Source: Klenkia taihuensis (GTDB lineage: Bacteria; Actinomycetota; Actinomycetes; Mycobacteriales; Geodermatophilaceae). Taken from it: a stretch of 64,000 nt of DNA. Of the stretch, positions 27,201-54,214 are shown one piece after another (the stretch's first letter is position 1; each line of letters starts with the position of its first letter). A model generated the notes under the pieces. That model ran no database searches and had not been told where the DNA came from. It was given only the letters and a program-made list of their open reading frames with translations. The position numbers and the translations under genes were made by a program. Location: contig NZ_FOMD01000002.1 in NCBI RefSeq assembly GCF_900112525.1, positions 682,001 to 746,000 on the forward strand, in the 5' to 3' direction.

Positions 27201-27223
27201 ATGAGCTGGTGCACGCTGGGGTC

Positions 27224-29472: not shown

Positions 29473-29509
29473 GGACCGCTCCCTCCTCGCGACACCGTTC
29501 GACACCTGA

Positions 29510-29589
29510 GTCGAATCTTCGACGCAAGTGACGGACGTGTCAACGGGTCGGCCGCCCCTTGACAGATCAGCGCGAGCGTCGAATATTCG
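29510..29589. promoter_or_regulatory. Divergent promoters, each with a TTCGAC-type operator on the -10
   Basis: Minus strand: TTGACA -35 (29543-29538), 17 nt, GAAGAT -10 (29520-29515), covered by the perfect palindrome GTCGAATCTTCGAC (29510-29523). Plus strand: TTGACA -35 (29559-29564), 17 nt, AATATT -10 (29582-29587), covered by palindrome CGAATATTCG (29580-29589). Both promoters, for the monooxygenase and for the isomerase operon, thus carry the same kind of operator at the same place. Confidence 0.78.
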
Positions 29590-29620
29590 TCGTCGTCGTC
29601 AACCGAGGAGGACCCAGGTC

Positions 29621-30376: not shown

Positions 30377-30401
30377 CCACCCCCACCCCCTGGAGGAACC
30401 C

Positions 30402-31058: not shown

Positions 31059-31300
31059 CCGCGCTGTACGTCCTCGACGTCCCCGAGAACGCCGGCGTCG
31101 CCGAGGTGGCCGGTCGCGACCCCGCCGTCACCGTGGTCCGCATCGGGCCCTACTTCGAGATCACGGCGGAGGGCCCGATCGTCATCGACCGCCGGGCGAC
31201 CGGCTGCCGGCACGCCGTCTGGTACTCCAGCGTCGCGGGTCTGGGCCGGTCCCGGATCACCCAGCACGACAAGGACGCCCTGCGGGTGGAACCCGCATGA
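31055..31300 (+). CDS. Small conserved-looking protein of unknown function
   Basis: 81 aa, starting with GTG 31055 overlapping the VOC stop and ending in ATGA overlap with the hydrolase gene, so it is firmly embedded in the operon. No family recognised. It is predicted to be a mixed alpha/beta globular chain (VTALYVLDVPE, VTVVRIGPYFEI, IVIDRRATGCRHAVWYSSVAG) with one Cys and one adjacent His. Possibly a small subunit or accessory protein of one of the neighbouring enzymes. Coding support is the two overlaps and the lack of an alternative frame. Confidence 0.75.
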   Translation: MTALYVLDVPENAGVAEVAGRDPAVTVVRIGPYFEITAEGPIVIDRRATGCRHAVWYSSVAGLGRSRITQHDKDALRVEPA

Positions 31301-32541: not shown

Positions 32542-32584
32542 CCCGGCCCCCACCACCCCACCCACCCCCAGCGGAGGACCTGCC

Positions 32585-34297: not shown

Positions 34298-34300
34298 CGC

Positions 34301-34993
34301 TCAGCGGTCCAGCTCGCGCTCCAGGTAGTCCAGGTCCTGCCGCAGCAGCGCCAGCGCCCGCTGCGGCCCGGTGCCGGTGACCTGCCGGTCGCCGGCCTCG
34401 GCCAGCGACGCGGCCGCCATGTCGGCGAGCTGGCCGGCGACCGCGTCGTCGCCGTGGCCGGGACGGTGCCACCAGGCGACCCAGTTGCACATGCCGATGA
34501 TGCCCAGCGCGGCGACCCGGGCGTCGGTCGGGCGCAGCTGACCGGCCTGCACGCCCTGCTCGATCACCTCGGTGAACTCGCGCAGGACCCGGCGCCGGCC
34601 GCGGCGGTACACGTCGGCGAGCTCGGCGGGCAGCTCGGCCTCGGACCGGATCAGCAGCCGGAACCGTTCCGGGTTGCGCGTCTGGTTGCGCGCCACCGCG
34701 AAGGCCATGTCGCGCAGCCGGCGCAGCGGGGGGACGGAGGTGTCGGCGTTGATGCGGCCGAGCTCGTCGGCCGGGCCCTCGGTGAGCTCCTCGACCAGGC
34801 GGGAGAGCAGGTCGTCCTTGCTGCGGACGTAGTGGTAGAGCGCGGGCCGGGTCAGGCCGGCGGCCTCGGCGATGTCCTGCAGGCTGGTGGCGGCGAACCC
34901 GCGCTCGGCGAACAGCCGGGTCGCGTGCTCGAGGATCTGCGCCTCGACCAGGTCCCGGCGTGCGCTGGGCCTGGGGGTCGAGCTCGTGGTCAT
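34301..34993 (-). CDS. TetR-family transcriptional regulator
   Basis: 230 aa. Canonical N-terminal HTH (LVEAQILEHATRLFAERGFAATSLQDIAEAAGLTRPALYHYVRSKDDLL) and an all-helical ligand domain. It sits in the middle of the catabolic cluster, convergent with the isomerase operon and downstream of hyuAB but separated from it by a strong terminator. It is a candidate for the regulator that binds the shared GTCGAA/TTCGAC operators, although no such site is seen in front of its own gene. Confidence 0.9.
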   Translation of the reverse strand: MTTSSTPRPSARRDLVEAQILEHATRLFAERGFAATSLQDIAEAAGLTRPALYHYVRSKDDLLSRLVEELTEGPADELGRINADTSVPPLRRLRDMAFAVARNQTRNPERFRLLIRSEAELPAELADVYRRGRRRVLREFTEVIEQGVQAGQLRPTDARVAALGIIGMCNWVAWWHRPGHGDDAVAGQLADMAAASLAEAGDRQVTGTGPQRALALLRQDLDYLERELDR

Positions 34994-35048
34994 CGGGGCC
35001 TTCCGCCGGTGGCTGGTCACGGACTCTAGTCCCGGGCCGGACGGCGCA

Positions 35049-35088
35049 CCGCCGCGCAGGGACCGGGTGGACGGTCCCTGCGCGGCGG
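35049..35088 (-). terminator. Terminator of the hyuAB-like operon
   Basis: Perfect 16-bp stem (35049-35064 with 35073-35088) and an 8-nt loop, 12 nt after the HyuB stop on the minus strand. No T-tract. Confidence 0.85.
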
Positions 35089-35100
35089 CGTCCGTGCTGC

Positions 35101-39533: not shown

Positions 39534-39593
39534 GGTGCGCTCCTTCGCGTCGATGCCCGTCCGGCCTTCGCTGGCCGATCCGTTGACATGCAC

Positions 39594-39626
39594 GTAGATT
39601 TTTCGACGTTGCCTTCGTCACGTCAA
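39594..39626 (-). promoter_or_regulatory. hyuA promoter with shared-type operator
   Basis: Minus-strand TTGACG -35 (39626-39621), 17 nt, AAAAAT -10 (39603-39598). The -10 is covered by GTAGATTTTTCGAC (39594-39607, plus strand), which matches 11 of 14 positions of the palindrome at 29510-29523. The divergent hydrolase gene starts 12 nt from the -35, so both could be controlled. Confidence 0.65.
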
Positions 39627-39637
39627 GGGGGTGCCGC

Positions 39638-40528
39638 ATGACCGTCCCGACCGACGACGCCGGTCCCGAGCACAGCCACCTGGCCGCCGCGGCGGCGGCC
39701 TTCGGGGTGCCTGTCGAACGGTTCGAGCTCGCCCGCCTGCAGGCACGGAACGGGCTCTCCGCCCTGCGCTACGGCACCGGCCGACCCGCCGTGGCCCTCC
39801 TGCACGGGGGCGGCCAGAACGCCCACACCTGGGACGTCACCATGGCCGCCGCGGGCCTGGCCGGCGTGGCGGTGGACCTGCCCGGGCACGGCCGCTCGCC
39901 GTGGACGACCGACCACGACCACTCGCCCCGGCGCCTGACACCCGCCGTGCGCGGCGCGCTGGCCGAGCTGGTGCCGGACTGCCGCGTCCTCGTCGGGATG
40001 TCCCTGGGGGGCATGGTCGCCGTCGACCTCGCCGCGTCGCTGCCCGACCTGCAGGCGCTGGTCCTGGTGGACGTGGCCCCGGGCTCGGCGGTCCCGCCCG
40101 GCAGCACGGTCGGTGCAGCCCAGCGCTTGGCCCGGGCGCCGCTCGACGTCCTCGTCGAGCAGGTGCACCGCCTGTCCCCCGAGCGGGACCCGGCTCCGCT
40201 CCGACACGGCATCTGGCACGCGACCCGCGACGCCGGCGACGGCGACCGGGCGTGGCGGGCCGACCCGGACGCCCGGGTGGGCTCGTTCGTGGACCTGTGG
40301 CCGCAGACCGAGGCGCTCGCCCCGCGACTGCACCTCGTGCTGGCCGAGCACGGGTCGTTCGTCCCACCCGCCGACCTCACCCGGCTCGGCCGGGTGGTGC
40401 GGCCGGGCCGGGTGCACCGGCTCGCCGGGGCGACGCACTCGGTGCAGAGCACGCGACCCCGGGCCCTGGCCGACGTCCTGGTGCAGGTCGCCGCCGAGGC
40501 CGGCGCCCGGCCGGGGACGCCGGCCTGA
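39638..40528 (+). CDS. Alpha/beta hydrolase
   Basis: 296 aa, typical length. LLHGGGQNAHTWD oxyanion loop, VDLPGHGRS, nucleophile elbow GMSLGGM and a C-terminal GATHSVQ His are visible. ATG 39638 follows AAGGGGG. Divergent from hyuA with 104 nt between start codons and probably co-regulated. It may hydrolyse an intermediate of the same pathway (lactone, thioester or beta-keto acid); N-formylmaleamate deformylase NicD is one family relative that would fit maleate formation, but evidence is thin. Confidence 0.83.
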   Translation: MTVPTDDAGPEHSHLAAAAAAFGVPVERFELARLQARNGLSALRYGTGRPAVALLHGGGQNAHTWDVTMAAAGLAGVAVDLPGHGRSPWTTDHDHSPRRLTPAVRGALAELVPDCRVLVGMSLGGMVAVDLAASLPDLQALVLVDVAPGSAVPPGSTVGAAQRLARAPLDVLVEQVHRLSPERDPAPLRHGIWHATRDAGDGDRAWRADPDARVGSFVDLWPQTEALAPRLHLVLAEHGSFVPPADLTRLGRVVRPGRVHRLAGATHSVQSTRPRALADVLVQVAAEAGARPGTPA

Positions 40529-40539
40529 TCCGACCTCGG

Positions 40540-40701
40540 TCAGGCCTCGTTCTGCACGCTGGCGCGGTCGATGACCGCCTCGGTCAGCGCCACGTCGAAG
40601 CGCTGGGCGATCGCCTGGAGCTCGTCGGCGGACGACCCGTCGCCGGACCTGGCCTCGACGAAGTCGGCGATGAGCTCCAGCAGGTCCCGGGACGTCGTCA
40701 T
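40540..40701 (-). CDS. Small predicted protein
   Basis: 53 aa from ATG 40701, reading TTSRDLLELIADFVEARS then DELQAIAQRFDVALTEAVID: an acidic, mainly helical chain with no Cys. No clear ribosome site. It is convergent with the hydrolase gene, and a GTCG...TTCGAC operator-like site stands 43 nt upstream, which is the best argument that it is expressed. No family recognised; it might be a small partner protein of the HyuAB-type enzyme. Confidence 0.5.
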   Translation of the reverse strand: MTTSRDLLELIADFVEARSGDGSSADELQAIAQRFDVALTEAVIDRASVQNEA

Positions 40702-40743
40702 GCCAGCACTGTCACCCACCCGCGCGCCGCTGTCCACACCTGT

Positions 40744-40757
40744 GTCGGGAATTCGAC
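40744..40757. promoter_or_regulatory. Operator-like site, shared type
   Basis: GTCGGGAATTCGAC, matching 10 of 14 positions of the palindrome at 29510-29523 with the outer GTCG/CGAC arms intact. A further GTCGAA half-site lies close by on the other strand. Located between the small ORF at 40540 and the SDR gene end. The core promoter here is not clear. Confidence 0.5.
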
Positions 40758-40770
40758 AGACCCTTCGACA

Positions 40771-41520
40771 TCACATCGACAGCCCGCCGTCGACCGGGAG
40801 CACGACGCCGGTGATGTACCCGGCCTCGGCGGAGGCGAGGAACGCGACGGCGGCGGCCATCTCGTCCGGCCGGCCGAAGCGGCCCACCGGGATGGCCTCC
40901 TCGGTCCGGGCCCGCACCTCCTCGGGGATCGACGCGACCATCCGGGTGTCGGCGTTCGGGGAGATCGCGTTGACCGTCACCCCGAACCCGGCCAGCTCCT
41001 TGGCCACGGTCTTGGTGAAGCCGATGACCCCGGCCTTGGCCGCGGCGTAGTTGGCCTGGCCGACGTTGCCGTGCAGCCCGGTGTAGGAGGTGACGTTGAC
41101 GATCCGCCCGTACTGCTGCGCGCGGAAGGCCGGGATGCAGGCCTGCACCAGGTGGAAGGTGCCCGTGAGGTGCACGGCGAGCACGGTGTCCCAGTCCTCG
41201 ACGGACAGCTTCCACACCCGGCGGTCGCGCAGCACCCCGGCGTTGTTGACCAGGACGTCGACGCGGCCGGTGCGCTCGAGCGCCGCCGCCACCACCCGGT
41301 CCACCTGCGCGCGGTCGGAGATGTCCGCGGCGACCGGGACCGCGCCGATCTCGGCGGCGGCGTGGTGGAGCACGTCCGCGTCGAGGTCGACGGCGACGAC
41401 GGTGGCGCCGGACGCGACGAACAGCGCGGCGGTGCTCAGGCCCACCCCGCGGCCCGCACCGGTGACGACGACGGTCTGGCCGGTGAAGTCGAAGGTGAGG
41501 TTGGCGTCGGGGGCGGTCAC
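40771..41520 (-). CDS. SDR oxidoreductase (FabG-like)
   Basis: 249 aa classical [13 protein letters not shown] cofactor loop, VNNAG, catalytic YAAAK and the terminal [15 protein letters not shown] 41520 overlaps the thiolase stop (GTGA), so the two act in one operon. Likely a 3-hydroxyacyl-CoA/3-ketoacyl-CoA oxidoreductase that feeds the thiolase, or an alcohol dehydrogenase making the ketone for the HyuAB-like enzyme. Confidence 0.87.
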
Positions 41521-42722
41521 GACGCCACCTCGAACAGGCCGGCGGCACCCATGCCGCCGCCGACGCACATGGACACCACGACCCACCGCACGCCGCGTCG
41601 ACGGCCCTCGACCAGCGCGTGCCCGACCAGGCGGGCACCGGTCATGCCGTAGGGGTGACCGAGGGCGATCGCACCGCCGTCGACGTTCATCCGCTCCGGG
41701 TCGATGCCCAGGACGTCGCGGCAGTGCACGGCCTGGGAGGCGAAGGCCTCGTTCAGCTCCCACAGGCCGATGTCGTCCACCGACAGCCCGTGCCGGCGCA
41801 GCAGCAGCGGGATCGCGGTGACCGGGCCGATGCCCATCTCCTCCGGGGCGCAGCCGGTGACGGCCATGCCCCGGTAGAAGCCCAGCGGGGCGATCCCGCG
41901 GCGGCCGGCGACACCGGCCTCCATCAGCACGGCCGCGGCGGCGCCGTCGGAGAGCTGGGAGGCGTTGCCCGCGGTCACGCTCGGCACCTCGCTGGCGTCG
42001 CCGGGCGCGAGGACGGGTCGCAGACCGGCCAGGGACTCCGCCGTCGTGGCCCGGATGCCCTCGTCGTGCGCCACCGTCACCTCGCGCGCGCCGACCTCGC
42101 CGGTGCCGCGGTCGGTCACCTGCATCGTGACCGTGATGGGCGCGATCTCCTCGTCGAACCGGCCGGCGTCGCGGGCGGCCGCGGCCCGCGTCTGGGACTG
42201 CAGGCCCATGAGGTCCTGCGCCTCCCGGGTGACCCCGTACCGCTCGGCGACCAGCTCGGCGGTGCGCAGCATCGGCCAGTAGACCCCGGGCACCCGCTCG
42301 GCGAGCCAGGGGTCGGCTGTGCGGTGGGTGTTGCGGTGGGCCTCCTGCACCAGCGAGATGGACTCCACGCCGCCACCGACGACGACGTCCATGCCCTCGT
42401 GCACGACCTGCCGGGCGGCGGCGGCGATGGCCATGAGGCCCGAGGCGCACTGCCGGTCGACCGTCGACCCGGGCACCGTCACGGGCAGGCCGGCCCGCAG
42501 TGCGGCCTGCCGCGCGACGTTGAAGCCGGTGGTGCCCTCCTGCATGGCGCAGCCGAGCAGGACGTCCTCGACCTCGGCCGGGTCGATGCCGGCCCGGCGG
42601 ACGGCGTGCTCGACGGCGTGCCCGGCCAGCTGCTGGCCGGTGGTGTCGTTGAAGGCACCCCGGTAGGCCTTGCCGACGGGGGTGCGGGCGACGGCGACGA
42701 CGGCCGCCTCACGGGTGCTCAT
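41517..42722 (-). CDS. Thiolase (acetyl-CoA C-acyltransferase)
   Basis: 401 aa. Acyl-binding Cys92 (DRQCASG), His356 ([11 protein letters not shown]) and Cys386 (CVGGGMG) complete the thiolase site. Cleaves a 3-ketoacyl-CoA with CoA to acetyl-CoA plus the shortened acyl- or aroyl-CoA. The start ATG lies 8 nt from a palindrome shared with the divergent TetR gene. With a carboxylase and CoA ligase nearby it could finish an acetophenone-like route; ordinary beta-oxidation is the simpler reading. Confidence 0.92.
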
Positions 42723-42730
42723 GCGGCGGC

Positions 42731-42744
42731 ATACTACGGAGTAT
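42731..42744. promoter_or_regulatory. Probable TetR operator between thiolase and tetR genes
   Basis: Inverted repeat ATACT-N4-AGTAT, 8 nt upstream of the thiolase ATG and 66 nt before the divergent TetR ATG. AT-rich against its surroundings. Confidence 0.65.
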
Positions 42745-42809
42745 CACGCCCAGCGGAAGGGGTCCGGCTCACTAGCCTGGGTCTCCCTGTCGACCGACCC
42801 CGAGGACGC

Positions 42810-43454
42810 ATGGACCACGCACAGCCGCCCACCGCTGACCGCCTGCACCTGCCGGCCGGCCAGCTGCGCATCGTCGACGCGGCCGCCGAGGCCTTCATGG
42901 AGCGCGGGTACGACGCCACGAGCATCGACGAGGTCGCGACCCGCATCGGGGCGACGAAGGGTGCGGTCTACTACAGCTACCGCTCCAAGCTCGACCTGTT
43001 CCTGGCCGTCTACGAGCGCGGCATGCTGCTGCTGGCCGACCGCGTCGAGCAGGCACTGACCGCAACCGGTGGGGCCTCCGCGGCCGAGCGGCTGCGCGCC
43101 GTCAGCGTCGCCCACGCCCGCAACATCCTCGACGCGTTCACCTACCACGTGGTGATCCAGAACGGGGTCGAGCACCGGCGGCAGATGGCCCTCAAGGACG
43201 CCGACCGCCGGCGCCTGGCCGAGCTGGACGAGCTGCGCGCGGCGCACGAGGAGCTCGTGCACGCCCTCGTGGTCGCCGGTCAGCAGGACGGTTCCCTGCG
43301 CCCCCTCCCCACCCGGCTGGCCACCCGCACGCTCATCGGCGGCGTCGTCGGGGTCGCGATCTGGTACCGGCCGCGCCCCGACCAGGACGACGCTGCCCGC
43401 GCCGAGCTGGCCGAGCAGGTCGTCGCGGTCCTCCTCGGCGGCCTGCTGCCCTGA
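42810..43454 (+). CDS. TetR-family transcriptional regulator
   Basis: 214 aa. HTH: LRIVDAAAEAFMERGYDATSIDEVATRIGATKGAVYYSYRSKLDLF. The C-terminal domain is helical with YHVVIQNGVEHRRQMALK. Divergent from the thiolase-SDR operon with an ATACT/AGTAT palindrome between, so it most likely represses that operon and itself. It ends 47 nt before a different palindrome that faces the next operon. Ligand probably an acyl-CoA by context. Confidence 0.9.
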   Translation: MDHAQPPTADRLHLPAGQLRIVDAAAEAFMERGYDATSIDEVATRIGATKGAVYYSYRSKLDLFLAVYERGMLLLADRVEQALTATGGASAAERLRAVSVAHARNILDAFTYHVVIQNGVEHRRQMALKDADRRRLAELDELRAAHEELVHALVVAGQQDGSLRPLPTRLATRTLIGGVVGVAIWYRPRPDQDDAARAELAEQVVAVLLGGLLP

Positions 43455-43460
43455 CCGCCG

Positions 43461-43490
43461 CCGGGGGTGCTTGACGGCGCTCGCCCCCGG
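43461..43490 (+). terminator. Hairpin after the TetR gene
   Basis: Seven-bp stem CCGGGGG/CCCCCGG (43461-43467 with 43484-43490) around a 16-nt loop, just after the TetR stop. A modest terminator candidate. Confidence 0.5.
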
Positions 43491-43500
43491 GAGCCATGCT

Positions 43501-43516
43501 TTGACCCAGCGGTCAA
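43501..43516. promoter_or_regulatory. Operator of the PaaK-like operon
   Basis: Perfect palindrome TTGACC-N4-GGTCAA, 35 nt upstream of the ATG at 43551. The left arm may double as a -35 box. Its form is that of a TetR-family operator; the TetR gene at the end of this same operon (46204) is the natural candidate. Confidence 0.7.
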
Positions 43517-43550
43517 AAAATCAACCGCATGACTTGCATGGAGCCCGTCG

Positions 43551-44963
43551 ATGTCGCCGAAGCCCATCCCCTACTACTGGTCCAGCGTCGACTGGCCACG
43601 GTTCGTGGCCGACTACCCGCCGCCACCGCTGTTCGACCAGCAGATGGCCCGCACCTCCGACGACGAGCTGCGCGAGCTGCAGGAGACCCGCTTCCTGCAG
43701 CGGATGACCGAGGCGTGGGCGGTGCCCTTCTACCGCGACCGGTGGACCGCGGCGGGGATGGAGCCCGGCGACGTCCGGGGCCTGGACGACCTGGCGTCGA
43801 TCCCCACCTTCACCAGCGAGGACCTCAAGCGCAGCGCGGAGGCCCTGCCGCCGTTCGGCACCCACCAGACCTTCGCCCTGGACGCCATGGCCACCCCGCT
43901 GAAGATCCAGTCCAGCGGCGGCACGTCGGGCCTCCCCCGGCCTACCCTCTTCGACCCGGTCGCCTGGGAGGTCCAGGCAGTCCAGTTCGCCCGCGCCTTC
44001 GTCGCCCAGGGCGGCGAGGTGGGCGACGTCCTGCAGATCACGCTCACCAACAGCCTGGCCAACACGGCCTGGTGCGCCTCGACCGCGGCGATGCACTGGA
44101 GCGGGATGGTGCCGCTGACCACGGGGTCGGGTGCGGTCACCAGCTCGGTGCGCCAGCTCGAGCTGGCCCGCGAGTGGGGCACCGCGGGTTGGGTGGCCTT
44201 CGGCGAGTACCTCAAGATCCTGGCCGAGACCGCGGAGAGCAACGGCGTCGACCTGCGCCGGGACCTGCGCACCCGGTTCATCCACACCTACCTCGGGGTG
44301 GACACCGACGGCCACCTGCGCCGGCTGCTGGAGGACGCCTGGGGCGTCCCCGTCTACGACAACTACGGGACGCACGAGGTGGGGCTGATCGGCTACGAGT
44401 GCCGCGCCCAGGACGGCCTGCACGTCAACGACGACACCGCCGTCCTGCAGATCGTGGACCGCGAGGACGGCCGACCGCTGGACGACGGCCAGGCCGGCAA
44501 CATCGTGGTGACGAGCCTGCACCGGTCGGTGCCCCCGATCATCCGGTACGACCTCAAGGACCTGATGCACCGCTCGTCCCGCGCGGGGTGCAGCTGCGGG
44601 GCCCGCACCACCAAGCTGTCGGGGTTCCTCGGCCGCAGCGACGAGATGGTCAAGCTGCGGGCCACCAGCGTCTACCCCCGCGCCGCGCAGGACACCGTGC
44701 AGGGCGACCCCCGCTCGACCGGCGAGTTCCTCTGCGTGGTCGACCAGGTCGGCGAGGGCATGGCCGCCCGCGAGCGGATGACCGTGCGGGTCGAGGCCAA
44801 GCCCGGCACCGACGGGGCCGCCCTGCACGGGGACATGGTCAGGCAGCTCAAGGTGCTGTTCGGGGTGGCGGTCGACGTCGAGGTCGTGCCCTCGGGCGCC
44901 CTCGCCCCGCTCACCGGCCTCGGCGGCGAGGGCAAGGTCAAGCGCCTGCTGGACCTCCGGTGA
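43551..44963 (+). CDS. Phenylacetate-CoA ligase-like adenylating enzyme (PaaK family)
   Basis: 470 aa. The PaaK-type P-loop SSGGTSGLPRP, DNYGTHEVG, DLMHRSSRAGCSCGARTTKLSGFLGRSDEMVKLRATSVYP and the ending LGGEGKVKRL fit PaaK-like ligases, which make aryl-CoA thioesters. It has the longer N-terminal part usual for benzoate/phenylacetate members. ATG 43551 has GGAG 7 nt upstream. First gene of an operon with SDR, VOC and TetR genes. This is a second, unrelated CoA ligase in the cluster, so another acid substrate is probable. Confidence 0.87.
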   Translation: MSPKPIPYYWSSVDWPRFVADYPPPPLFDQQMARTSDDELRELQETRFLQRMTEAWAVPFYRDRWTAAGMEPGDVRGLDDLASIPTFTSEDLKRSAEALPPFGTHQTFALDAMATPLKIQSSGGTSGLPRPTLFDPVAWEVQAVQFARAFVAQGGEVGDVLQITLTNSLANTAWCASTAAMHWSGMVPLTTGSGAVTSSVRQLELAREWGTAGWVAFGEYLKILAETAESNGVDLRRDLRTRFIHTYLGVDTDGHLRRLLEDAWGVPVYDNYGTHEVGLIGYECRAQDGLHVNDDTAVLQIVDREDGRPLDDGQAGNIVVTSLHRSVPPIIRYDLKDLMHRSSRAGCSCGARTTKLSGFLGRSDEMVKLRATSVYPRAAQDTVQGDPRSTGEFLCVVDQVGEGMAARERMTVRVEAKPGTDGAALHGDMVRQLKVLFGVAVDVEVVPSGALAPLTGLGGEGKVKRLLDLR

Positions 44964-45730
44964 CCTTCGACCTCGCCGGCTGGTTCTCCCTCGAGGACCG
45001 GGTCACCGTGGTCACGGGCGCCTCGGCCGGCCTCGGCGTCGCGTTCGCCGAGACGTTCGCCCGCGCCGGCTCCGACGTGGTCGTCGCCGCGCGCCGGGGT
45101 GACCGCCTGGGGGCCACCGCCGACGCGGTGCGGTCGCGTGGCCGCCGGGCCCTCGCCGTCCCGACCGACGTGTCCCGTCCCGAGGACTGCCAGCGCCTGG
45201 TCGACGCCGCGGTGGCCGAGTTCGGGCGGGTCGACGTGCTGGTCAACAACGCCGGCACCGCCTCCGCCGTGCCCGCCACCCGGGAGACCCCCGAGCAGTT
45301 CCGCTCCGTCGTCGACGTCAACCTGCACGGCTCGTACTGGACGGCGCAGGCCTGCGCGCGGGTGATGGCACCCGGCAGCGCGGTCATCAACATCTCCAGC
45401 GTGCTGGCCTACACGACCGCCGGGCTCCCGCAGGCCGCCTACTCCGCGAGCAAGGCCGCCCTCGTCGGGCTCACCCGCGACCTCGCCCAGCAGTGGGGAC
45501 GCCGCCGGGGCATCCGGGTGAACGCCCTGGCCCCGGGCTTCTTCGCCAGCGAGATGACGGAGACCTACACCCCGGAGTACGTCGACGGCGTGCTGCGCCC
45601 CCGCATCCTGCTCGACCGCCCCGGCGCGGCGGAGGAGCTCGCGACCACCGCCGTCTGGCTCGCCTCGCCCGCCGCCGGCTACGTCACCGGCCAGACCCTG
45701 CTGGTCGACGGCGGCCTGTCCGCCACCTGA
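44960..45730 (+). CDS. SDR oxidoreductase
   Basis: 256 aa classical SDR: VVTGASAGLGVAFAE, VNNAGTASAV, YSASKAALVGLTRDLAQQW and the terminal GYVTGQTLLVDGG. GTG 44960 overlaps the ligase stop by GTGA. The reading suggests a dehydrogenase acting on a hydroxyacyl-CoA or aryl alcohol next to the PaaK-like ligase. Confidence 0.88.
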   Translation: MTFDLAGWFSLEDRVTVVTGASAGLGVAFAETFARAGSDVVVAARRGDRLGATADAVRSRGRRALAVPTDVSRPEDCQRLVDAAVAEFGRVDVLVNNAGTASAVPATRETPEQFRSVVDVNLHGSYWTAQACARVMAPGSAVINISSVLAYTTAGLPQAAYSASKAALVGLTRDLAQQWGRRRGIRVNALAPGFFASEMTETYTPEYVDGVLRPRILLDRPGAAEELATTAVWLASPAAGYVTGQTLLVDGGLSAT

Positions 45731-45765
45731 TCGCGCCCGACCACCCACCACCGAGGAGACCCGCC

Positions 45766-46191
45766 ATGCCCCTGGACCACGTCAACGGCATCAACATCGC
45801 CGTCCGCGACCTGCCCCGCTGGACCCGCCGCTACGAGCAGGTGCTCGGCGTCGACAGCACCCCCGTGGACGCCGACGGGTTCGCCTTCCCCGGGATGGAG
45901 GGCTCCTCCTTCGACCTCGGCGGGTTCTTCCTCAACCTGATCACCAGCGCCGACCCGACCACGTCCGTCGGCCGCTTCCTCGAGCGCAACGGCGACGGCT
46001 TCTTCCTGCTCTCCCTCGGGGTGGACGACGTGGACGCCGCCGGCCGGCGCCTGACCGACCAGGGCCTGAAGCCGTTGCTCGAGACCGCCAAGGAGGGCCC
46101 CGGCCACCCGCCGGTCAACTTCCTGCACCCGAAGGAGATGGCCGGGATCCAGATCGAGCTGATCCAGGTCGAGCGGCAGCCCGCGGGGTAG
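45766..46191 (+). CDS. VOC-family protein (methylmalonyl-CoA epimerase/glyoxalase-like)
   Basis: 141 aa, one VOC double module. LDHVNGINIAVRDLPRWTRRYEQVLGV starts the fold and FLHPKEMAGIQIELIQ ends it, the latter resembling methylmalonyl-CoA epimerase. Possible metal ligands are His in DHVNG and Glu in IQIELIQ. ATG 45766 follows GAGGAG. It might act on a CoA-bound intermediate made by the two genes upstream. Confidence 0.78.
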   Translation: MPLDHVNGINIAVRDLPRWTRRYEQVLGVDSTPVDADGFAFPGMEGSSFDLGGFFLNLITSADPTTSVGRFLERNGDGFFLLSLGVDDVDAAGRRLTDQGLKPLLETAKEGPGHPPVNFLHPKEMAGIQIELIQVERQPAG

Positions 46192-46203
46192 GGTCCGACC
46201 CCG

Positions 46204-46920
46204 ATGGCCAGAGGCGCGATGGTGCGGGACGAGGTCGTCCGCTCCGCCACCAGGCTGTTCAAGGAGCGCGGCATCCGCGGGGTGTCCCTGCAGGACATCG
46301 CCGACGAGGTCGGGCTCACCAAGGGTGCGCTCTACCACTACTTCAGCAACCGCGACGACCTGCTGCGGCAGGTGTTCGGCGACTGGATCACCCAGGAGTT
46401 CGAGAGCCTGCGCGCGCACACCTCGGGGTCGGGTGGCCCGACGGCCCAATTGCGCGACTACGTGCGGTACCACGTCACGTCGGTCACCCAGAACATCGAC
46501 CTGTACCACCTGTCCTTCTCCTCCGAGGCCGAGCTGCCCCCCGACGTGCGGGCCGAGTTCCGCCAGCTGAAGCGGCGCAGCGACTCGGTGCTCAAGGCCA
46601 TCCTGCGCGCGGGGGTGGCCGCCGGGGACTTCGAGCCGCGCGACGAGAAGGTGATGGCCTTCGCCATCGACGGCATGTGCAACTGGCTGAGCCAGTGGTA
46701 CGCCGCGGACGGCCCGAAGTCGCCCGCCCAGATCGCCGACGACTTCGTCGAGCTGCTGCTGCGCGGCCTGGTGCGGCAGGACGACGGCCCCACCGACTCC
46801 GGCCCCGCCCACGGGGCGGTCGCGACGGCCGAGTACCACGCCCGCGCCATCCGGTTCCACAGCGAGCGCCTCGAGCAGCTGCTGCCCACCCTCGGCGGCC
46901 CGGGCGGCACCGGGGCCTGA
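46204..46920 (+). CDS. TetR-family transcriptional regulator (KstR2-like layout)
   Basis: 238 aa. HTH: VVRSATRLFKERGIRGVSLQDIADEVGLTKGALYHYFSNRDDLLRQVF, followed by a helical domain with YHLSFSSEAELPPDVRAEFR and WLSQWYAADGPKSPAQIADDFVELLLRGL, an arrangement common in regulators that sense acyl-CoA. It closes the PaaK-like operon, 12 nt after the VOC stop, and is the best candidate to bind TTGACC-N4-GGTCAA at 43501. Convergent with the acyl-CoA dehydrogenase gene. Confidence 0.9.
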   Translation: MARGAMVRDEVVRSATRLFKERGIRGVSLQDIADEVGLTKGALYHYFSNRDDLLRQVFGDWITQEFESLRAHTSGSGGPTAQLRDYVRYHVTSVTQNIDLYHLSFSSEAELPPDVRAEFRQLKRRSDSVLKAILRAGVAAGDFEPRDEKVMAFAIDGMCNWLSQWYAADGPKSPAQIADDFVELLLRGLVRQDDGPTDSGPAHGAVATAEYHARAIRFHSERLEQLLPTLGGPGGTGA

Positions 46921-46930
46921 TCGGCCCGGG

Positions 46931-48727
46931 TCAGAGCAGCGCGGCGTCCAGGTCCCGGCAGAGCACCTCGCCGCCGGCGACCGGTGCCAGCCAGGCGGCG
47001 ACGCGGGGCAGCTCGTAGGCGAAGAAGTAGGCCGCCGCCGCCGTCCGGCCCGCCGCCTCGGGGTGGGCGGAGCCGGCCGCGGTCACCGCGAGGTCCAGGT
47101 GCACCCAGGCCAGCACGACGTGGCCGAACGCCTGCAGGTAGGGCGTGGCGTTGGCCAGCGCGGCCGAGGCGTCGCCGTCCCGCCAGGCCGCGTCGGTCGC
47201 CGCGAGGACGTCGGCCCAGCCCTGCTCCAGGTCCGCCGCCCAGCCGCCCAGGCCCGCGGCGCGCGCCCGGGTCGCCGTGCTCGACAGCACCGCACCGAGC
47301 TCCCGCAGGCAGGCACCGTCGCGCAGCCGCACCTTGCGGCCGAGCAGGTCCACCGCCTGGATGCCGTGCGTGCCCTCGTGGATCATGTTCAGCCGCTGGT
47401 CCCGCCAGAACTGCTCGACGGGGAAGTCCCGGGTGTAGCCGGCGCCGCCGAGCACCTGGATCGCCAGGCTGTTGCCCTCCAGGCACCACTCGCTCGGCCA
47501 GCTCTTCAGCACGGGGGTCAGCACCTCCAGCAGGGTGGCTGCCCGGGTGCGCGCCCCGTCGTCCCCGGTGCGCTGGTCGTCGAGCAGCCGGCCGACGTAC
47601 AGGGCCAGCGCCAGGGCGCCCTCGGCGTAGGACTTCTGCGCCAGGAGCATGCGCTTGACGTCGGTGTGCGCCACGAGCGGCACCTGCTCGCCGTCCCGGA
47701 CCCCGCGCGGGCGGCCCTGGCGCCGGGTGCGGGCGTAGTCCAGGGAGACCGCGAACCCGGCGTAGCCCAGCGCAGCGGCGAGCAGGCCGACCTCGGCGCG
47801 CGCGGCGTTCATCATGTGGAACATCTGGTCCAGCCCCTGGCCCGGTGCGCCGACCAGGTGGCCGACCGCCCGGTCGAAGGACAGCGCGGTGTTGGGGATG
47901 CCGCGCATGCCCAGCTTGTGGTTGAGCCCGACGAGGGAGACCCCGTTGCGCTCCCCCGGCTCGCCGTCCGGCCCGACCCGCACCTTGGGGACGACGAACA
48001 GCGACAGCGCCCCGGTGCCGGTCCGCACCGCACCGTCGTCGTCGGCGATCTTGGCGAGCACGAGGTGGACGATGTTGTCCGTCAGCGGGTGCTCGGCGCC
48101 GCTGATCCACATCTTGTCGCCGGTGACCCGGTACCGCGGGCCCAGCGGGTCCCCGGCCGAGTCCGGCCCGTCGGGGACGGCGCGGGTGGTGACGTCGGCC
48201 AGCGACGACCCGGCCTGGGACTCCGACAGCGCCATGGTCCCGGTCCAGCGGCCCTCGACCTGGGGGACGGCGAAGGCCCGGCGCTGGGCCGGCGAGCCGT
48301 GCTCGGCCAGCAGCGCCGCGTTGCCCTCGGTCAGCAGCATCGGCACCAGGTTCGGGCCGGCCGCCGAGAACACCGCGCGCACCGCCATGTCCACCGTGCG
48401 GGGCAGCTGCAGCCCGCCGTCCGCGTGGTCGTGGCCGGCGCCGGCGACCCCCGCCGACCGGTAGGCCTCCCAGGCGCGGTGGGTGGCGGCGGGGAGCACG
48501 ACCCCGCCGTCGGGGCCGACGCGCGGTTCCTCGACGTCGCTGACCCGGTCGGCCGGCTCGAAGACCTCCTCGGCGATCTGCGAGGCCATGGCGAGCAGGT
48601 CCGTGCAGGTGTCCACCGAGTGGTCGGCGAAGCGGGGCCGCCGCAGCAGCGACCCCAGCTCCAGCCACTCGACCAGCAGGAAGTCCAGCGTCCGCAGCAG
48701 CCCGCGCTGCACCACCGAGCCGCTCAC
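46931..48727 (-). CDS. Acyl-CoA dehydrogenase, ~600-aa class (DmdC/FadE type)
   Basis: 598 aa flavoprotein. ALSESQAGSSLADVTTRA, KMWISGAEHPLTDN, LNHKLGMRGIPNTAL and catalytic region MIHEGTHGIQAVDLLGRK (Glu as base) are visible, plus the extra C-terminal helical domain of the long class, which includes 3-methylmercaptopropionyl-CoA dehydrogenase. GTG 48727 overlaps the MBL stop (GTGA). Introduces a double bond in an acyl-CoA. Third gene of the operon led by the OYE-type reductase. Confidence 0.88.
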   Translation of the reverse strand: MSGSVVQRGLLRTLDFLLVEWLELGSLLRRPRFADHSVDTCTDLLAMASQIAEEVFEPADRVSDVEEPRVGPDGGVVLPAATHRAWEAYRSAGVAGAGHDHADGGLQLPRTVDMAVRAVFSAAGPNLVPMLLTEGNAALLAEHGSPAQRRAFAVPQVEGRWTGTMALSESQAGSSLADVTTRAVPDGPDSAGDPLGPRYRVTGDKMWISGAEHPLTDNIVHLVLAKIADDDGAVRTGTGALSLFVVPKVRVGPDGEPGERNGVSLVGLNHKLGMRGIPNTALSFDRAVGHLVGAPGQGLDQMFHMMNAARAEVGLLAAALGYAGFAVSLDYARTRRQGRPRGVRDGEQVPLVAHTDVKRMLLAQKSYAEGALALALYVGRLLDDQRTGDDGARTRAATLLEVLTPVLKSWPSEWCLEGNSLAIQVLGGAGYTRDFPVEQFWRDQRLNMIHEGTHGIQAVDLLGRKVRLRDGACLRELGAVLSSTATRARAAGLGGWAADLEQGWADVLAATDAAWRDGDASAALANATPYLQAFGHVVLAWVHLDLAVTAAGSAHPEAAGRTAAAAYFFAYELPRVAAWLAPVAGGEVLCRDLDAALL

Positions 48728-49647
48728 GCCGGTGCGAAGCGGTAGCCCCCGCCGTCGCGGACGACCCGGCCGGCGCTGGTCCCGGCGAAGTGCGTGCCCA
48801 GGACCAGCAGGTCGGTGTCGGCGGCGGACTCGACGAACTCCACCCGGCGGGCGGCGCTCTGGGCCCGGTCGAAGTCGCCGTGGCTGCTCCAGGTCGGCTC
48901 GGCGATCTGCACCGGGTGGTGGATGAAGTCGCCCGTGATGAACGCCCGCTCCCCCTTCGACTCGACCACGACGCTGTGGTGGGACTTGGTGTGCCCCGGG
49001 GTGGAGACGTACCGGACGCCCTCGGTCACGACGTGGTCGGCCGGGACCAGGTCCAGCAGCCCGGCGTCGACGACGGGCTGGATGGACTCCGCGAACACCA
49101 GCCGCGTCTGGTTGTGGATGTCGGGGTTGGCCCCCTCGTAGACGACGGCGCCGGCGAGGTCGTCGGAGATGTCGGCCTCCTCGGCGATGCCCTGGTGGTA
49201 GGCGAACTCGTCGGCGACGTAGACGTAGCGGGCGTTCGGGAACGTGGGGACCCAGCGACCGCCGTCGTCGACGGTGTTCCACCCGACGTGGTCGAGGTGC
49301 ATGTGCGTGCACAGGACGACGTCGACCTGCTCACGGGTGTACCCGGCCTCGGCCAGCCGCTCCAGGAAGGGGTTGTCGAGCTTTCCCCAGGCCGGGATGA
49401 GCGGGGCGGACTTGCCGTTGCCGCAGCCGGTGTCGACCACCACGACGGCGGAGCCGGTGTCCACCACGTAGGAGTGCAGGCTCCAGATGGTCTGGCCGCC
49501 GGCGGTGGCGTAGTCCGGGTGCAGCCAGCCGATGCCCTGGACGACCTCCGGGGTGGCCTCGGCGATCAGCCCGTCCAGGACCCCGACCTCCACCGGCATC
49601 TCCAGCACCTGGGTGATCCGGATGTCGCCGACCGTCCAGCTGCGCAT
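48724..49647 (-). CDS. Metallo-beta-lactamase-fold hydrolase
   Basis: 307 aa. Zinc ligand motif THMHLDHVGWN, the PGHTKSHHS His, GDFIHHP Asp and late THFAG His are all in place. The N-terminus WTVGDIRITQVLEM is usual for MBL hydrolases linked to aromatic or N-heterocycle pathways. ATG 49647 has AGGGG at 6 nt; the longer GTG 49689 would overlap the upstream gene. Probably a lactonase or thioesterase; substrate unknown. Confidence 0.85.
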   Translation of the reverse strand: MRSWTVGDIRITQVLEMPVEVGVLDGLIAEATPEVVQGIGWLHPDYATAGGQTIWSLHSYVVDTGSAVVVVDTGCGNGKSAPLIPAWGKLDNPFLERLAEAGYTREQVDVVLCTHMHLDHVGWNTVDDGGRWVPTFPNARYVYVADEFAYHQGIAEEADISDDLAGAVVYEGANPDIHNQTRLVFAESIQPVVDAGLLDLVPADHVVTEGVRYVSTPGHTKSHHSVVVESKGERAFITGDFIHHPVQIAEPTWSSHGDFDRAQSAARRVEFVESAADTDLLVLGTHFAGTSAGRVVRDGGGYRFAPA

Positions 49648-49678
49648 CGTCGTCCCCTGCTCCTCGGTCGTCGCGGTG

Positions 49679-51670
49679 TCAGACGGCACGGCCGGCCATC
49701 TCGCCCTCGTAGATCGCCTGGTCCACCTGGCGGGGAGCCGAGCAGTCGCCGATCTGGCTGACCTCGAAGTGCTCGCGCAGGCCGGCGGCCAGGGAGGTCT
49801 CGGGGTCGCGCAGCATGACCGTGACGACCGAGTCGACGGGCAGGACCCGGTTCTGGAAGTCCCACACCCGGGTGAGCACGGCGCCCTCCTCGGTGACCGC
49901 CCCGACGATGTGCTGCGGGGTGAGGGTGACGCCCAGGGCGTGCAGCCGGGGGTAGAGGTGGCCGACGTCCAGGGTGAGCAGGATCTTCTCGCCCAGGTAC
50001 ATGCCCGCGGTGATGACCTCGACGGTCTTGCCGGCCTGCGCCAGGGTCTCGGCCAGGCCGAGCGCGGTGTACTCGCCGGTGTCGTCGACCACCAGCACCC
50101 GCTCCCCGCACAGCTCGGGGTTCGCCAGGGCCTGGATCGGGTCGAGCACCCGCACGTGCTCCAGGCCGGGGATGCCCGGGCGGAAGGCGGTCTTGGCGCT
50201 GAACCCGTCGGTGCGCCAGGTCGACCCGGTCGCGAGCACCACGTGGTCGGGCGCCAGTGCGCGGACGTCGTCCACGGTGGCGTCGGTCCCGAGCCGCACG
50301 TCGACGCCGTGCAGGGCGAGCTGGCGCTCCATGTCCTTGACCATCACGTTCCAGCGGCCGCGGGTGGCGATCTGCGCGGCGTAGCGGATCTGCCCGCCGA
50401 GCCGGTCGTCGCGCTCGAGCAGCACCACCTCGTGCCCGCGGGAGGCCGCGACCTCCGCGGCCCGCATGCCGGCCGGGCCGCCGCCGACCACGACGACCTT
50501 CTTCGGCGTGGAGGTGCGGCTGAAGGTGTCGATGCCGAGCAGCTCCTCGCGGCCGGCGGCCGGGTTCTGGGTGCAGGTCAGCGACCAGCCCTGGGCCATC
50601 CGGTTGATGCAGCCCTGGTTGGCGCTGACGCAGTGCCGGATCTCCTGCTCGCGGCCGGACCGGGCCTTGCTGACCAGGTGCGGGTCGGCGATGTGCGCAC
50701 GGGTCATGGCGACCATGTCGGCGTGGCCCTGCTCGACGATGTCGGCGGCGATGGAGAGGTCGGTGATGCCGTTCGCGGTGAGCACCGGCAGACCGTTGAC
50801 CACCTTCTTGGCGCGGGCGGCGAGGTCGACCAGGCGGGCGCCCGGCATGCTCATCGGGGAGACGACCTGGTCGAAGGTCGAGGCGTTCCCCGCGCTGATG
50901 GAGAAGTAGTCGAAGAGGCCGGAGTCGGCCAGGTACCGGGCGATCCGCTCGCCCTCCTCGGCGTCGATGCCACCGGGCACGCCCTCGACCAGGGAGAGCC
51001 GGACCCCGACGGGGAAGTCGGGACCGCACTCGTCGCGGACGGCCTGCGCGCACTCCAGCACGATGCGGCAGCGGTTCTCGGTGTTGCCGCCGTACTCGTC
51101 GGTGCGCAGGTTGGTCAGCGGGGACAGGAAGCTGCACAGCAGGTAGCCGTGGGCCGCGTGCACCTCGGCGCCGTCCAGGCCGGCGGTCTTGGCGTTGCGG
51201 GCGCTGCGGGCGAACCCGGAGGCGAGCTCGGCGATGTCCTCGCGGGTCATCGGCTTGCCGATCTCGTTGTAGGTGAACGAGGGGACGCCGGAGGCGCTCC
51301 AGAGGGCACGCCAGTTGTCCAGGAACATCGAGCTGTGGTCCTCGACGCCGAAGTGGGACAGGTCGACGAACACCTTGGCGCCGTGCCGGTGGACCGCCTC
51401 GGCGAGCCGCCGGTAGACGGGGATGACCGCCGGGTCCCAGCCCTGGTGGGTGCGGGGCGCGAGGCCGCGGCTGTTGGGCAGGACGGCCTGCGCCTCGGTG
51501 AGGATGAGGCCGGCGCCGCCCTTGGCCCGCTCCTCGTAGTAGTCGACGCTCTGCTGGGTCATCAGGTTGTCGACCGCGTACTGCAGGGCGTGCGCGGTGA
51601 CCACGACGCGGTTCTTCAGCGTCACGGAGCCCACCTGCAGCGGCTCCCACAACGGCGCGTACTTCTCCAT
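49679..51670 (-). CDS. Old-yellow-enzyme-type NADH:flavin oxidoreductase with FAD domain (FadH/TMADH-like)
   Basis: 663 aa. Residues 1-370 form the FMN barrel (LKNRVVVTAH, HFGVEDH, GAEVHAAHGYLLCSFLSP); the rest carries a FAD/NAD domain (VVVVGGGPAGMRAAEVAASRGHEVVLLE). Between them the iron-sulfur segment reads C-V-S-A-N-Q-G-C then C after 11 residues: the second of the four expected Cys is Ala, so a standard 4Fe-4S cluster is doubtful. Family reactions are 2,4-dienoyl-CoA reduction or amine demethylation. ATG 51670 follows GGAGG. First gene of the operon. Confidence 0.87.
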   Translation of the reverse strand: MEKYAPLWEPLQVGSVTLKNRVVVTAHALQYAVDNLMTQQSVDYYEERAKGGAGLILTEAQAVLPNSRGLAPRTHQGWDPAVIPVYRRLAEAVHRHGAKVFVDLSHFGVEDHSSMFLDNWRALWSASGVPSFTYNEIGKPMTREDIAELASGFARSARNAKTAGLDGAEVHAAHGYLLCSFLSPLTNLRTDEYGGNTENRCRIVLECAQAVRDECGPDFPVGVRLSLVEGVPGGIDAEEGERIARYLADSGLFDYFSISAGNASTFDQVVSPMSMPGARLVDLAARAKKVVNGLPVLTANGITDLSIAADIVEQGHADMVAMTRAHIADPHLVSKARSGREQEIRHCVSANQGCINRMAQGWSLTCTQNPAAGREELLGIDTFSRTSTPKKVVVVGGGPAGMRAAEVAASRGHEVVLLERDDRLGGQIRYAAQIATRGRWNVMVKDMERQLALHGVDVRLGTDATVDDVRALAPDHVVLATGSTWRTDGFSAKTAFRPGIPGLEHVRVLDPIQALANPELCGERVLVVDDTGEYTALGLAETLAQAGKTVEVITAGMYLGEKILLTLDVGHLYPRLHALGVTLTPQHIVGAVTEEGAVLTRVWDFQNRVLPVDSVVTVMLRDPETSLAAGLREHFEVSQIGDCSAPRQVDQAIYEGEMAGRAV

Positions 51671-51730
51671 GTCCGACCTCCGCGGGCCAGTCGGCAGCTC
51701 CGTCGCTGATCCGACTTGTAGTTCAAGAAA

Positions 51731-51746
51731 CCGACCACCCGGTCGG
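51731..51746. promoter_or_regulatory. Operator of the OYE-type operon
   Basis: Perfect palindrome CCGACC-N4-GGTCGG, 60 nt upstream of the ATG at 51670. Same 6-4-6 geometry as the site at 43501-43516 (outer bases differ), so a related TetR protein may bind. The surrounding 210-bp gap (51671-51880) shows no gene. Confidence 0.65.
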
Positions 51747-51880
51747 ATGCCGTCACTGTTGTGGGCCCGCACACACTTGTCAAGGACCTCGTGCAGCGCA
51801 CACGGGCGCGACGACGGCACCGTGCCGGTGTCGATCGGCACGCAGGAACGGCAGGACGGCGGGGCGGCGGTCCCCGCCGG

Positions 51881-52486
51881 TCAGGCCTGTTCTGCCGGTC
51901 CGTCCCTGCCCAGGACGAGGCAGGTGGCGTCGTCGGGCAGCCCCGTCGATGCCTCGCGGCGCCGCACCTCCTCGAGCAGGGCCCGCGGGACGTCCTGGGT
52001 GGTGGCGGCGGAGGCGATCAGTCGGGTGATGTCGGCGCCCGTGATGCCCCGCCCCGTGTGCACACCGGCGGCCATGACGCCGTCGCTGAGGGCCACCACC
52101 GCAGCGCCGGGTGCCAGGTCGACGGTGTGCACCGTGCGCACCCCGTGGTTGCCCAGCAACGGGCCGGGCGGGAGGTGCACCCGTTCGACGGGGGCGGCCG
52201 TACCACCGGAGGTCCACAGCCGCGGCGCCCCGGCCACGACCACGTCGACCTCGGTCGTCCTGCAGCTGGACAGCAGGAAGACCGCTCGCAGGTGGTCGAC
52301 GGCGCCGGCCCGGGCCAGGACGTCGTCCACGCAGGCGACCTGGTCGAGCAGGCCGAGACCCGTCCGGCGGGCCTGCCGGACCGCAGCGATGGCCAGGGAG
52401 GTGTCGGTGGCCGGCACGTCGGCACCGGCGCACTCCACCAGGCAGGCCCACAACTGGTCACCGTCGACCGACCAGTCGAACAGGTC
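51881..52486 (-). pseudogene. Truncated PP2C/SpoIIE-type phosphatase
   Basis: The minus-strand reading from 52486 has DLFDWSVDGDQLWACLVE, VVALSDGVMAAG and GLPDDATCLVLGR, matching the middle and end of a PPM/SpoIIE phosphatase. The N-terminal part with the first metal-binding Asp/Gly motif and any start codon is missing: sense coding stops exactly where the plus-strand transporter remnant begins. The frame stays open upstream only as antisense. About 200 residues remain, with an intact stop. Probably not functional. Confidence 0.72.
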
Positions 52487-52681
52487 GTGCTGGACACCCT
52501 CGTCGTCTTCGCCGCCCTGCACGCCGGGGCCCCGTTCGGCTACGCCCACTGGCTGGCCTGGCTCTGGTACACGGTCCTGGCCAACATGGCCGGCGGCCTC
52601 CTCGTCGTCACCCTCCTCCGGCTGGTCCGCAGCAAGGACCTGATCGTCGAGGAACGAGCCGACGTGGCCGCTGGGGACTGA
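52487..52681 (+). pseudogene. C-terminal remnant of a formate/nitrite-type membrane transporter
   Basis: 64 codons reading VVFAALHAGAPFGYAHWLA then a hydrophobic helix ANMAGGLLVVTLLRLVRSK and an acidic tail ending at a normal TGA. This resembles the last helix and tail of FNT-family channels, normally 250-300 aa. The upstream 200+ residues are absent; the sequence runs instead into the antisense of the phosphatase remnant. The family call is moderately sure, the truncation is clear. Confidence 0.6.
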
Positions 52682-52838
52682 TCCCCGACGACCGGCCTCG
52701 CGTGCAGGGGTGCCGCCCAGGAATCGACACCTGGATGGCACCGGTCCCGGACCACGTCACGGCACCGCGGGACCGTGCACGGAGGTCGGCGGTCACCCAG
52801 CCGCGGGCACACGCGGAACCCGTACGGGCACGTCGGAG

Positions 52839-52925
52839 CGGAGGGCGAGGGATTCGAACCCTCGAGGAGCGTGAACCCCTAGCAGTTTTCAAGACTGCCG
52901 CCATCGGCCACTAGGCGAGCCCTCC
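52839..52925 (-). tRNA. tRNA-Ser (anticodon TGA)
   Basis: 87 nt on the minus strand. The acceptor stem GGAGGGC (5' end at 52925) pairs perfectly with GCCCTCC; the anticodon loop reads CTTGAAA, giving TGA; a long variable arm and the T-loop GGTTCGAATCC follow. Discriminator base G; CCA is not encoded. Class II structure confirms Ser. It lies 158 nt from the truncated transporter and marks the right side of the catabolic region. Confidence 0.95.
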
Positions 52926-53017: not shown

Positions 53018-54148
53018 ATGCGCGTGGCCCTGGTCTCGGAGACGTTCACCCCTGCGGTCAACGGCGTCGTCACCTCGGTGCTGCGCGCCGCCGACCACCT
53101 GGCCCTGCGCGGGCACGAACCGGTCGTCGTGGCGCCGTCCGGCGCGGACTACGAGACCCGCTGCGGGGCGGTGGTCCCGGTGCACGCGGTGCGGTCGGTC
53201 CGGCTGCCGCGGTACCGGGAGCTTCCACTGGCCGCGCCCACCGGCGAGGTCGGCGAGCTGCTGGACGAGCTGCGCCCGGACGTCGTCCACCTCGCCTCCC
53301 CCGCCGTCCTCGGGTCGACCGCGGCGCGGGCGGCGCAGCAGCGCGGCATCCCTGCCGTCGCGGTGTTCCAGACCGACCTGGCCGCCTACGCGGGGCGCTA
53401 CCGGCTGCCCGGCGGGTCGGCGACGACGTGGCGGTGGCTGCGTGCGCTGCACGACCGGACGGCGCTGACCCTGGTGCCCTCGACCCCCACGATGGCCCAG
53501 CTGCGCCGGCACGGCATCGGGCCGCTGGCGCTGTGGGCGCGGGGCGTGGACCTGGAGCAGTTCTCCCCCACCCGCCGGTCGGACGCCGTCCGCACGGCCC
53601 TGGCCCCGGACGGGGAACTGCTGGTCGGCACGGTCGCCCGGCTCGCCGTGGAGAAGCGGCTGCACCTGCTGGGGCCGCTGTCCGAGCTGCCGGGGGTGCG
53701 GCTGGTGGTGGTCGGGGACGGTCCGCAGCGGCGGGCCCTGCAGCGGGTGCTGTCGCGGGCGGTGTTCACCGGCCGGGTGGTCGGCGAGGAGCTCGGCGAC
53801 CTGGTGTCCTCGCTGGACCTGCTGGTGCACCCCGGCGCGGACGAGACGTTCTGCCAAGCGGTGCAGGAGGCCCTCGCGGCGGGGGTGCCGGCGCTGGTCG
53901 CGGCGTCGGGCGGCCCGCTGGACCTGGTCCGGCACGGGGAGAACGGGTGGCTGTGGGCCGGTGACGACCCGTGGGTGCTGGCCGCGCAGGTCGAGGGCCT
54001 GCGGGACGACCGGCTGGCCCTGCGCGCGGCGGCGGGGCGGGCGCGGGCCTCGGTGGCGCACCGCACCTGGGGCCGGCTGGGCGACGAGCTGGTCGGCCAC
54101 TACGAGCAGGTACTCGGCGGGGGGACGGTGCACCGGCTCGCGTCGTGA
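53018..54148 (+). CDS. GT4-family glycosyltransferase (MgtA/PimB-like mannosyltransferase)
   Basis: 376 aa. MRVALVSETFTPAVNGVVTSVLRAADHL is the start typical of GDP-mannose-dependent alpha-mannosyltransferases acting on membrane glycolipids in actinobacteria. The C-terminal domain has GTVARLAVEKRLHLL and the EX7E motif (ETFCQAVQE). ATG 53018 is the only sensible start. Likely acts at the cytoplasmic membrane face on an acceptor lipid. Its TGA lies inside a dispersed palindrome. Stands alone after tRNA-Ser. Confidence 0.88.
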   Translation: MRVALVSETFTPAVNGVVTSVLRAADHLALRGHEPVVVAPSGADYETRCGAVVPVHAVRSVRLPRYRELPLAAPTGEVGELLDELRPDVVHLASPAVLGSTAARAAQQRGIPAVAVFQTDLAAYAGRYRLPGGSATTWRWLRALHDRTALTLVPSTPTMAQLRRHGIGPLALWARGVDLEQFSPTRRSDAVRTALAPDGELLVGTVARLAVEKRLHLLGPLSELPGVRLVVVGDGPQRRALQRVLSRAVFTGRVVGEELGDLVSSLDLLVHPGADETFCQAVQEALAAGVPALVAASGGPLDLVRHGENGWLWAGDDPWVLAAQVEGLRDDRLALRAAAGRARASVAHRTWGRLGDELVGHYEQVLGGGTVHRLAS

Positions 54149-54214
54149 TCTTGCAGAACGGCAACGCCGCCACGCCGGTGCTCGGCGCGGCGGCGTTGCG
54201 GAACTGCAAGATCA
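54146..54214. repeat. Dispersed palindrome, type A copy 2
   Basis: 26-bp arms (54146-54171 and 54189-54214): 11 paired, 4 unpaired, 11 paired, with a 17-nt loop. The left arm begins with the TGA stop of the glycosyltransferase. The GCAGAACGGCAACG core is shared with the copy at 7513-7579, which also includes a gene's stop codon at its edge. Confidence 0.82.

Follow-up and report, generated by a model that had tools for sequence, protein, structure and literature searches.

A head-to-head junction of two 5'-truncated genes beside a tRNA-Ser gene, and the variable region that adjoins it

AICEs and other actinobacterial tyrosine-integrase elements, as described in the available part of PMC3218068, have variable DNA at the 3' end of a tRNA gene, as does the locus analyzed here. 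A further likeness to AICE-type elements, an integrase near the tRNA together with a distant direct repeat of the tRNA 3' end, is featured by some relatives only. Unlike in the elements covered in that part of the source (PMC3218068), neither a tyrosine integrase nor a repeat was found at the site in the genome under study. Scars of illegitimate joining in Streptomyces ambofaciens provide a second term of comparison. In the accessible portion of PMC5869714, healed breaks of this species are marked by deletions and captured fragments, and 1-6 nt micro-homologies are present in half of the scars. The present locus resembles these scars in that deletion or fragment capture would have left little or no shared sequence. 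In S. ambofaciens, according to the same portion (PMC5869714), breaks were made on purpose and the products then sequenced, whereas here the event is read back from its outcome, and 0-1 nt are shared. The two genes joined at the locus are homologous to RsbU/SpoIIE-type PP2C phosphatases (PF07228) and to FNT transporters (PF01226), but neither retains its 5' part, and presumably neither functions. The scar is of an ordinary kind, and no general question turns on it. It is a worked example of how sequence beside a tRNA integration site is overwritten, in which both parents of the join are identifiable at least as families, and the analysis also places a 26.9-kb insertion and its left edge.

The window is a stretch of 64,000 nucleotides (G000:C7:682001-746000), residing in an 873-kb contig of a 4.32-Mb genome assembled in 10 contigs (G000, the own genome). 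Its G+C content is 71-79%, and 72-75% in the scar stretch; the G+C content of the window and its genes point to an actinobacterium. Relatives of the same genus are denoted G001-G008; G016 belongs to another genus. Genes were predicted by a home-made hexamer scorer with a cut-off of 15, and the phosphatase remnant, which scored 6.9, was not called. The features next to the tRNA are the following:

51881-52486, minus strand: 3' remnant of a PP2C phosphatase gene of the SpoIIE/RsbU type, with 201 codons and stop; PF07228 match; homologues extend upstream
52486-52487, no strand: junction of the two remnants, given by the FNT breakpoint fit; phosphatase homologues break at the same base
52487-52681, plus strand: 3' remnant of an FNT-family (formate/nitrite transporter) gene, 64 of about 271 codons and stop, assigned by identity to same-genus FNT genes
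52838-52925, minus strand: tRNA-Ser (TGA anticodon), found by ARAGORN; its 3' half, about 52836-52898, is the likely attachment core

The head-to-head junction is read as a non-functional scar at a tRNA-Ser hotspot, with a probability of roughly 85%.

The minus-strand remnant matches PF07228 (SpoIIE) with 46 bits against a cut-off of 25, over profile positions 2-191 of 192. In a protein search of 60 genomes, the own included, phosphatase relatives at E 1e-6 or better were found in 20 of 59 relatives, with identity not exceeding 36%, and each of the 27 non-self matches listed begins with residue 1 of the remnant, encoded by the codon directly left of the junction. Homologues were aligned as stop-to-stop frames of at least 401 codons. 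Of 29 loci entered, 25 gave rows (24 without the own), L097, L100, L106 and L109 giving none; the set includes 9/25 loci from another phosphatase locus set. The cut falls directly ahead of the D in a GG|D motif, and the residues found at this point in the 24 aligned homologues are GG|D (20), RG|D (3) and AG|D (1). The GGD motif has a metal-binding role. By alignment with the homologues, the complete motif and the part upstream of it are absent from the phosphatase gene of the window. Homologue frames run 191-383 codons further upstream (n=24), a figure counted from the previous stop and hence an upper bound on the loss. An altered second conserved motif, considered as a sign of decay, was dropped, as near homologues also vary there. 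The phage search gave no match for the phosphatase, and no relative was found in the viral contigs searched; four plasmid records match at 29-35% identity.

On the other side of the junction, 78-91 of the first 100 bases are identical to those of five same-genus FNT genes; of the 10 bases to the left, 2-3 match the same genes. A two-rate breakpoint fit, carried out on four of these five, falls at 52487 in each comparison. The FNT stop codon, at position 64, is at the same codon in 7/7 same-genus genes, and among the starts listed at least six of the seven have one 207 codons upstream of the junction. Both truncations and the exact junction are thus confirmed and are not due to chance. The original prediction, which had a minus-strand phosphatase without its 5' part abutting a similarly truncated plus-strand transporter at 52486/52487, both with normal 3' ends, was correct in these respects; it placed the tRNA-Ser 158 nt further, and the gap between the FNT stop (52681) and the tRNA (52838) measures 156 nt. 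No PF01226 match was obtained by Pfam profile search in G000, nor in the plus-strand remnant frame, and the single PF01226 match of G001 is a different FNT gene.

With either parent family the join has 0-1 nt in common. On the FNT side, the last base before the junction differs in four of five intact genes and agrees in one. On the phosphatase side, where homology is judged from distant homologues, the first base agrees in 4/7 of these. Neither remnant has an internal stop, and the G+C content by codon position is still gene-like. dN/dS of the FNT tail is 0.08-0.35 (58 codons, compared with seven same-genus genes). The low ratio and the lack of stops suggest a recent break; retained function would fit too.

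The junction was searched in 112 genomes of the family, the own included, with positions 51700-52560 as query, and the only match that crosses it is that of the window itself. Matches were found in 55 genomes, at 56 listed places. One is the own locus, the G001 match spans the left flank only (query 2-88), and the remaining 54 begin at query 787 or beyond (window 52486 or beyond), so that no listed non-self match covers the phosphatase. At most the four best candidates per genome were scored in this search, which missed the known FNT match of G007, and weak matches can escape it. The original prediction had singled out conservation of the junction in distant genera, with purifying selection on both reading frames, as the finding that would speak against a scar, and nothing of the kind was seen in the family. 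An assembly artefact joining two unrelated stretches is highly improbable, as the join lies inside the 873-kb contig and both flanks agree with G001.

Open frames run through the junction on both strands, and measure 286 aa (minus) and 306 aa. Because open frames opposite predicted genes are common in the scar stretch, those at the junction are no evidence of a fusion gene. The fusion gene was rejected on this ground, and because no counterpart was found in the family genomes searched. The catalytic domain might still be made, as a shortened or chimeric phosphatase encoded by the 286-codon minus-strand frame, which starts in antisense FNT sequence: little of the Pfam domain is missing, and no stop interrupts the frame at the junction. 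This is very unlikely, as everything before the D of GG|D is gone, antisense open frames abound here, and the family genomes searched hold no counterpart. Even less credit is given to the junction making a new chimeric protein, in which minus-strand expression would yield a PP2C domain standing alone behind an N-terminus from antisense transporter sequence; this would be a gene born at an integration-site scar. Most likely neither the remnants nor the junction have a function, because both genes have lost their 5' parts and the searches yielded no counterpart of the junction.

The scar lies at one end of a DNA region that varies among relatives. The elements of this region are:

23949-25952, plus strand: helicase gene, conserved left backbone flank, with Suv3-type DEXQ helicase domain and Helicase_C
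25953-52830, no strand: 26.9-kb extra region, which G016 lacks at its near-empty site, with catabolic-looking enzymes and regulators
51788-52830, no strand: 1.04-kb patch, seen only in G000, which contains the scar and lies between the catabolic block and the tRNA flank

Window points 25760 and 52836 are only 277 bp apart in G016, which thus has a near-empty site in another genus, relative to which the window carries extra DNA at the tRNA 3' end. Matches to the helicase run through to the end of the gene in G001-G006 and as far as 25760 in G016; in G004 helicase and tRNA-Ser are on separate contigs. The left boundary of the variable region, which the original prediction had proposed to look for, is located at 25952/25953. 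Rightwards, sequence is conserved in G001-G007 from about 52831, and in G016 around the tRNA and again from 56130. Of 24 genes predicted in the region, 19 were scanned, and 16 have Pfam families (oxidoreductase, acyl-CoA, hydantoinase-type, hydrolase and other enzyme families, TetR/MarR regulators), while three have none. To judge from these families the region is probably catabolic. Mobility, replication or transfer domains were not found by Pfam in the 19 genes.

The interval 40773-51787 is common to the window and G001, at 94% identity. The shared catabolic block stops there, about 700 bases short of the junction, and the scar does not mark the end of the catabolic region, as had been supposed. 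The match to G001 ends at 51787 and resumes at 52834, and in G001 the space between is taken up by 1,073 unrelated bases (a 1.07-kb patch). This patch features (at L062 8718-9649) an HTH-like ORF of 119 aa and another that is HATPase-like, each under the Pfam cut-offs, and has no DNA counterpart in eight other same-genus genomes, the own included, beyond a 33-base match in G003. Two further readings were discarded. The idea that G000 and G001 each carry part of one regulatory module was rejected because the HATPase and HTH proteins of G001 are unmatched outside G001 at the loci examined, phosphatase loci included. A right flank acquired as a whole from another species was rejected because the sequence on either side is mostly 91-97% identical to that of G001, apart from dips at 22.5, 54 and 55.5 kb.

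Other differences from G001 lie further left. In place of the interval 26698-40772, the middle of the region, G001 has about 11.5 kb of different DNA, 25962-26697 and 40773-51787 being shared. About 720 bp, absent from the window, are found in G001 (L078 3677-4396) exactly at the left edge (25954/25962). By sequence comparison, the 26.9-kb region appears to be a mosaic.

Partial copies of the 3' half of the tRNA-Ser, 55-67 bp long and 87-100% identical, were found in six of eight same-genus relatives (G002, G004-G008). They reside on the contig of the tRNA itself in G002 (about 10.6 kb away), G005 (about 15 kb) and G006 (about 42 kb), and on other contigs in G004, G007 and G008; the full tRNA-Ser of G008 is absent among the matches listed. 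Integrases adjoin this tRNA-Ser in three of nine genomes searched. Counted from stop to stop, the tyrosine integrase frames have 397 codons in G006 and 383 in G007; these two are 80% identical and end 54 nt from the tRNA, and that of G005 is frame-broken. No PF00589 match was found at the tRNA-Ser in G000-G004, and the six PF00589 matches of G000 are all outside the window. In the window, tblastn with the integrases of the relatives gave no significant match to an integrase relic, and no copy of the tRNA end was found, either at up to 3 mismatches over 26 nt or by word-7 blastn. Among the best 40 of 708 candidates, the own genome has the tRNA-Ser itself and one 73% match elsewhere. The stretch beside the tRNA-Ser is, on the well-supported testimony of the relatives, probably an integration hotspot whose contents turn over. 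Neither a tRNA-end copy nor a tyrosine integrase was found there in G000, so that integration at this very site is deduced from some relatives. The notion of a tRNA-linked island edge hence stands as to the integrases and tRNA copies of the relatives and the near-empty site of G016, but not as to a repeat or a tyrosine integrase in G000.

The FNT orthologue of the genus has its native locus elsewhere in the genome, and the gene is missing there in G000 and G001. In a comparison of the G005 native locus with five other genomes, a sequence of 940-942 bp in G005 is reduced to 12-14 bp in G000 and G001. The loss of the gene at this locus (L130 2345-2360, L131 5861-5874) is clean, and common to the two genomes. 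The closest relatives of the FNT tail are G005 and G008 (89-90%), vs 80% for G007; identity in the right-flank backbone is mostly 91-95% for G007 and mostly 80-87% for G005. A tree of 174 nt groups the window tail with G005, G008, G002 and G003 (95/97), the order within the set being not resolved. Because the identity pattern of the tail is at odds with that of the backbone, there are hints that the tail may have arrived by a horizontal route, for example from a G005-like donor; 174 nt are too short to settle the point.

The events may be viewed as follows. The contents beside the tRNA-Ser would turn over, and in the lineage of G000 a 1.04-kb patch would have been left between the acquired catabolic block and the tRNA. 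Within the patch two broken ends, one in a SpoIIE-type phosphatase gene, the other in an FNT gene, would have been united with no homology between them, Ku-type end joining being the most likely agent; a deletion or the capture of fragments would have come first. Both genes would have lost the 5' part, and presumably are decaying. We infer both this order of events and the lack of function.

The two routes to the join are about equally likely, and each is held tentatively. A simple deletion may have struck divergent intact phosphatase (minus) and FNT (plus) genes, removing both 5' parts and the DNA in between. The head-to-head geometry is what this route leads to expect, a single event is enough, and both 3' ends are retained. 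Against it, in the matches listed for 59 relatives (phosphatase at E 1e-6 or better) the nearest phosphatase and FNT genes on one contig are about 28 kb apart, and in this genus the FNT orthologue normally occupies another locus. No intact divergent phosphatase/FNT pair was seen; the original prediction had proposed looking for intact FNT and SpoIIE-type genes at this place in related strains. The deletion put forward in the original prediction is therefore one route only, though the broken state of both genes was rightly recognized. Alternatively, a break near the tRNA may have been sealed with fragments of two genes that came from different places and had not been neighbours before. Patchwork capture of this kind would fit a native FNT locus that lacks the gene in G000 and G001 while the tail is present here, phosphatase relatives (59 genomes) that reach 36% protein identity at best, and patches in G000 and G001 which, the 33-base match excepted, have no DNA counterpart in the genomes searched. 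The available text of PMC5869714 reports that breaks healed in S. ambofaciens had captured DNA fragments ranging from 30 bp to 18.8 kb. This route takes more events than a deletion, and the source of the phosphatase piece was not found.

Whichever the route, end joining is the likeliest agent, because the join shares 0-1 nt, Ku is encoded (PF02735, E 3.9e-55 in G000), and the S. ambofaciens scars are similar. Ku was found in all six same-genus genomes searched, G000 and five relatives, and so does not single out G000.

To the right of the tRNA, at 54147-54213, the window hosts a 67-bp near-perfect palindrome (folding z-score -9.7). Among the best 40 candidates per genome, copies are found at 8 places in G000, the palindrome itself included, 5 in G001, 11 in G007 and none in G005; these copies may be REP- or MITE-like. 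One, near 7510-7584, is missing at the same place in G001, and has an imperfect 8-base repeat at its edges.
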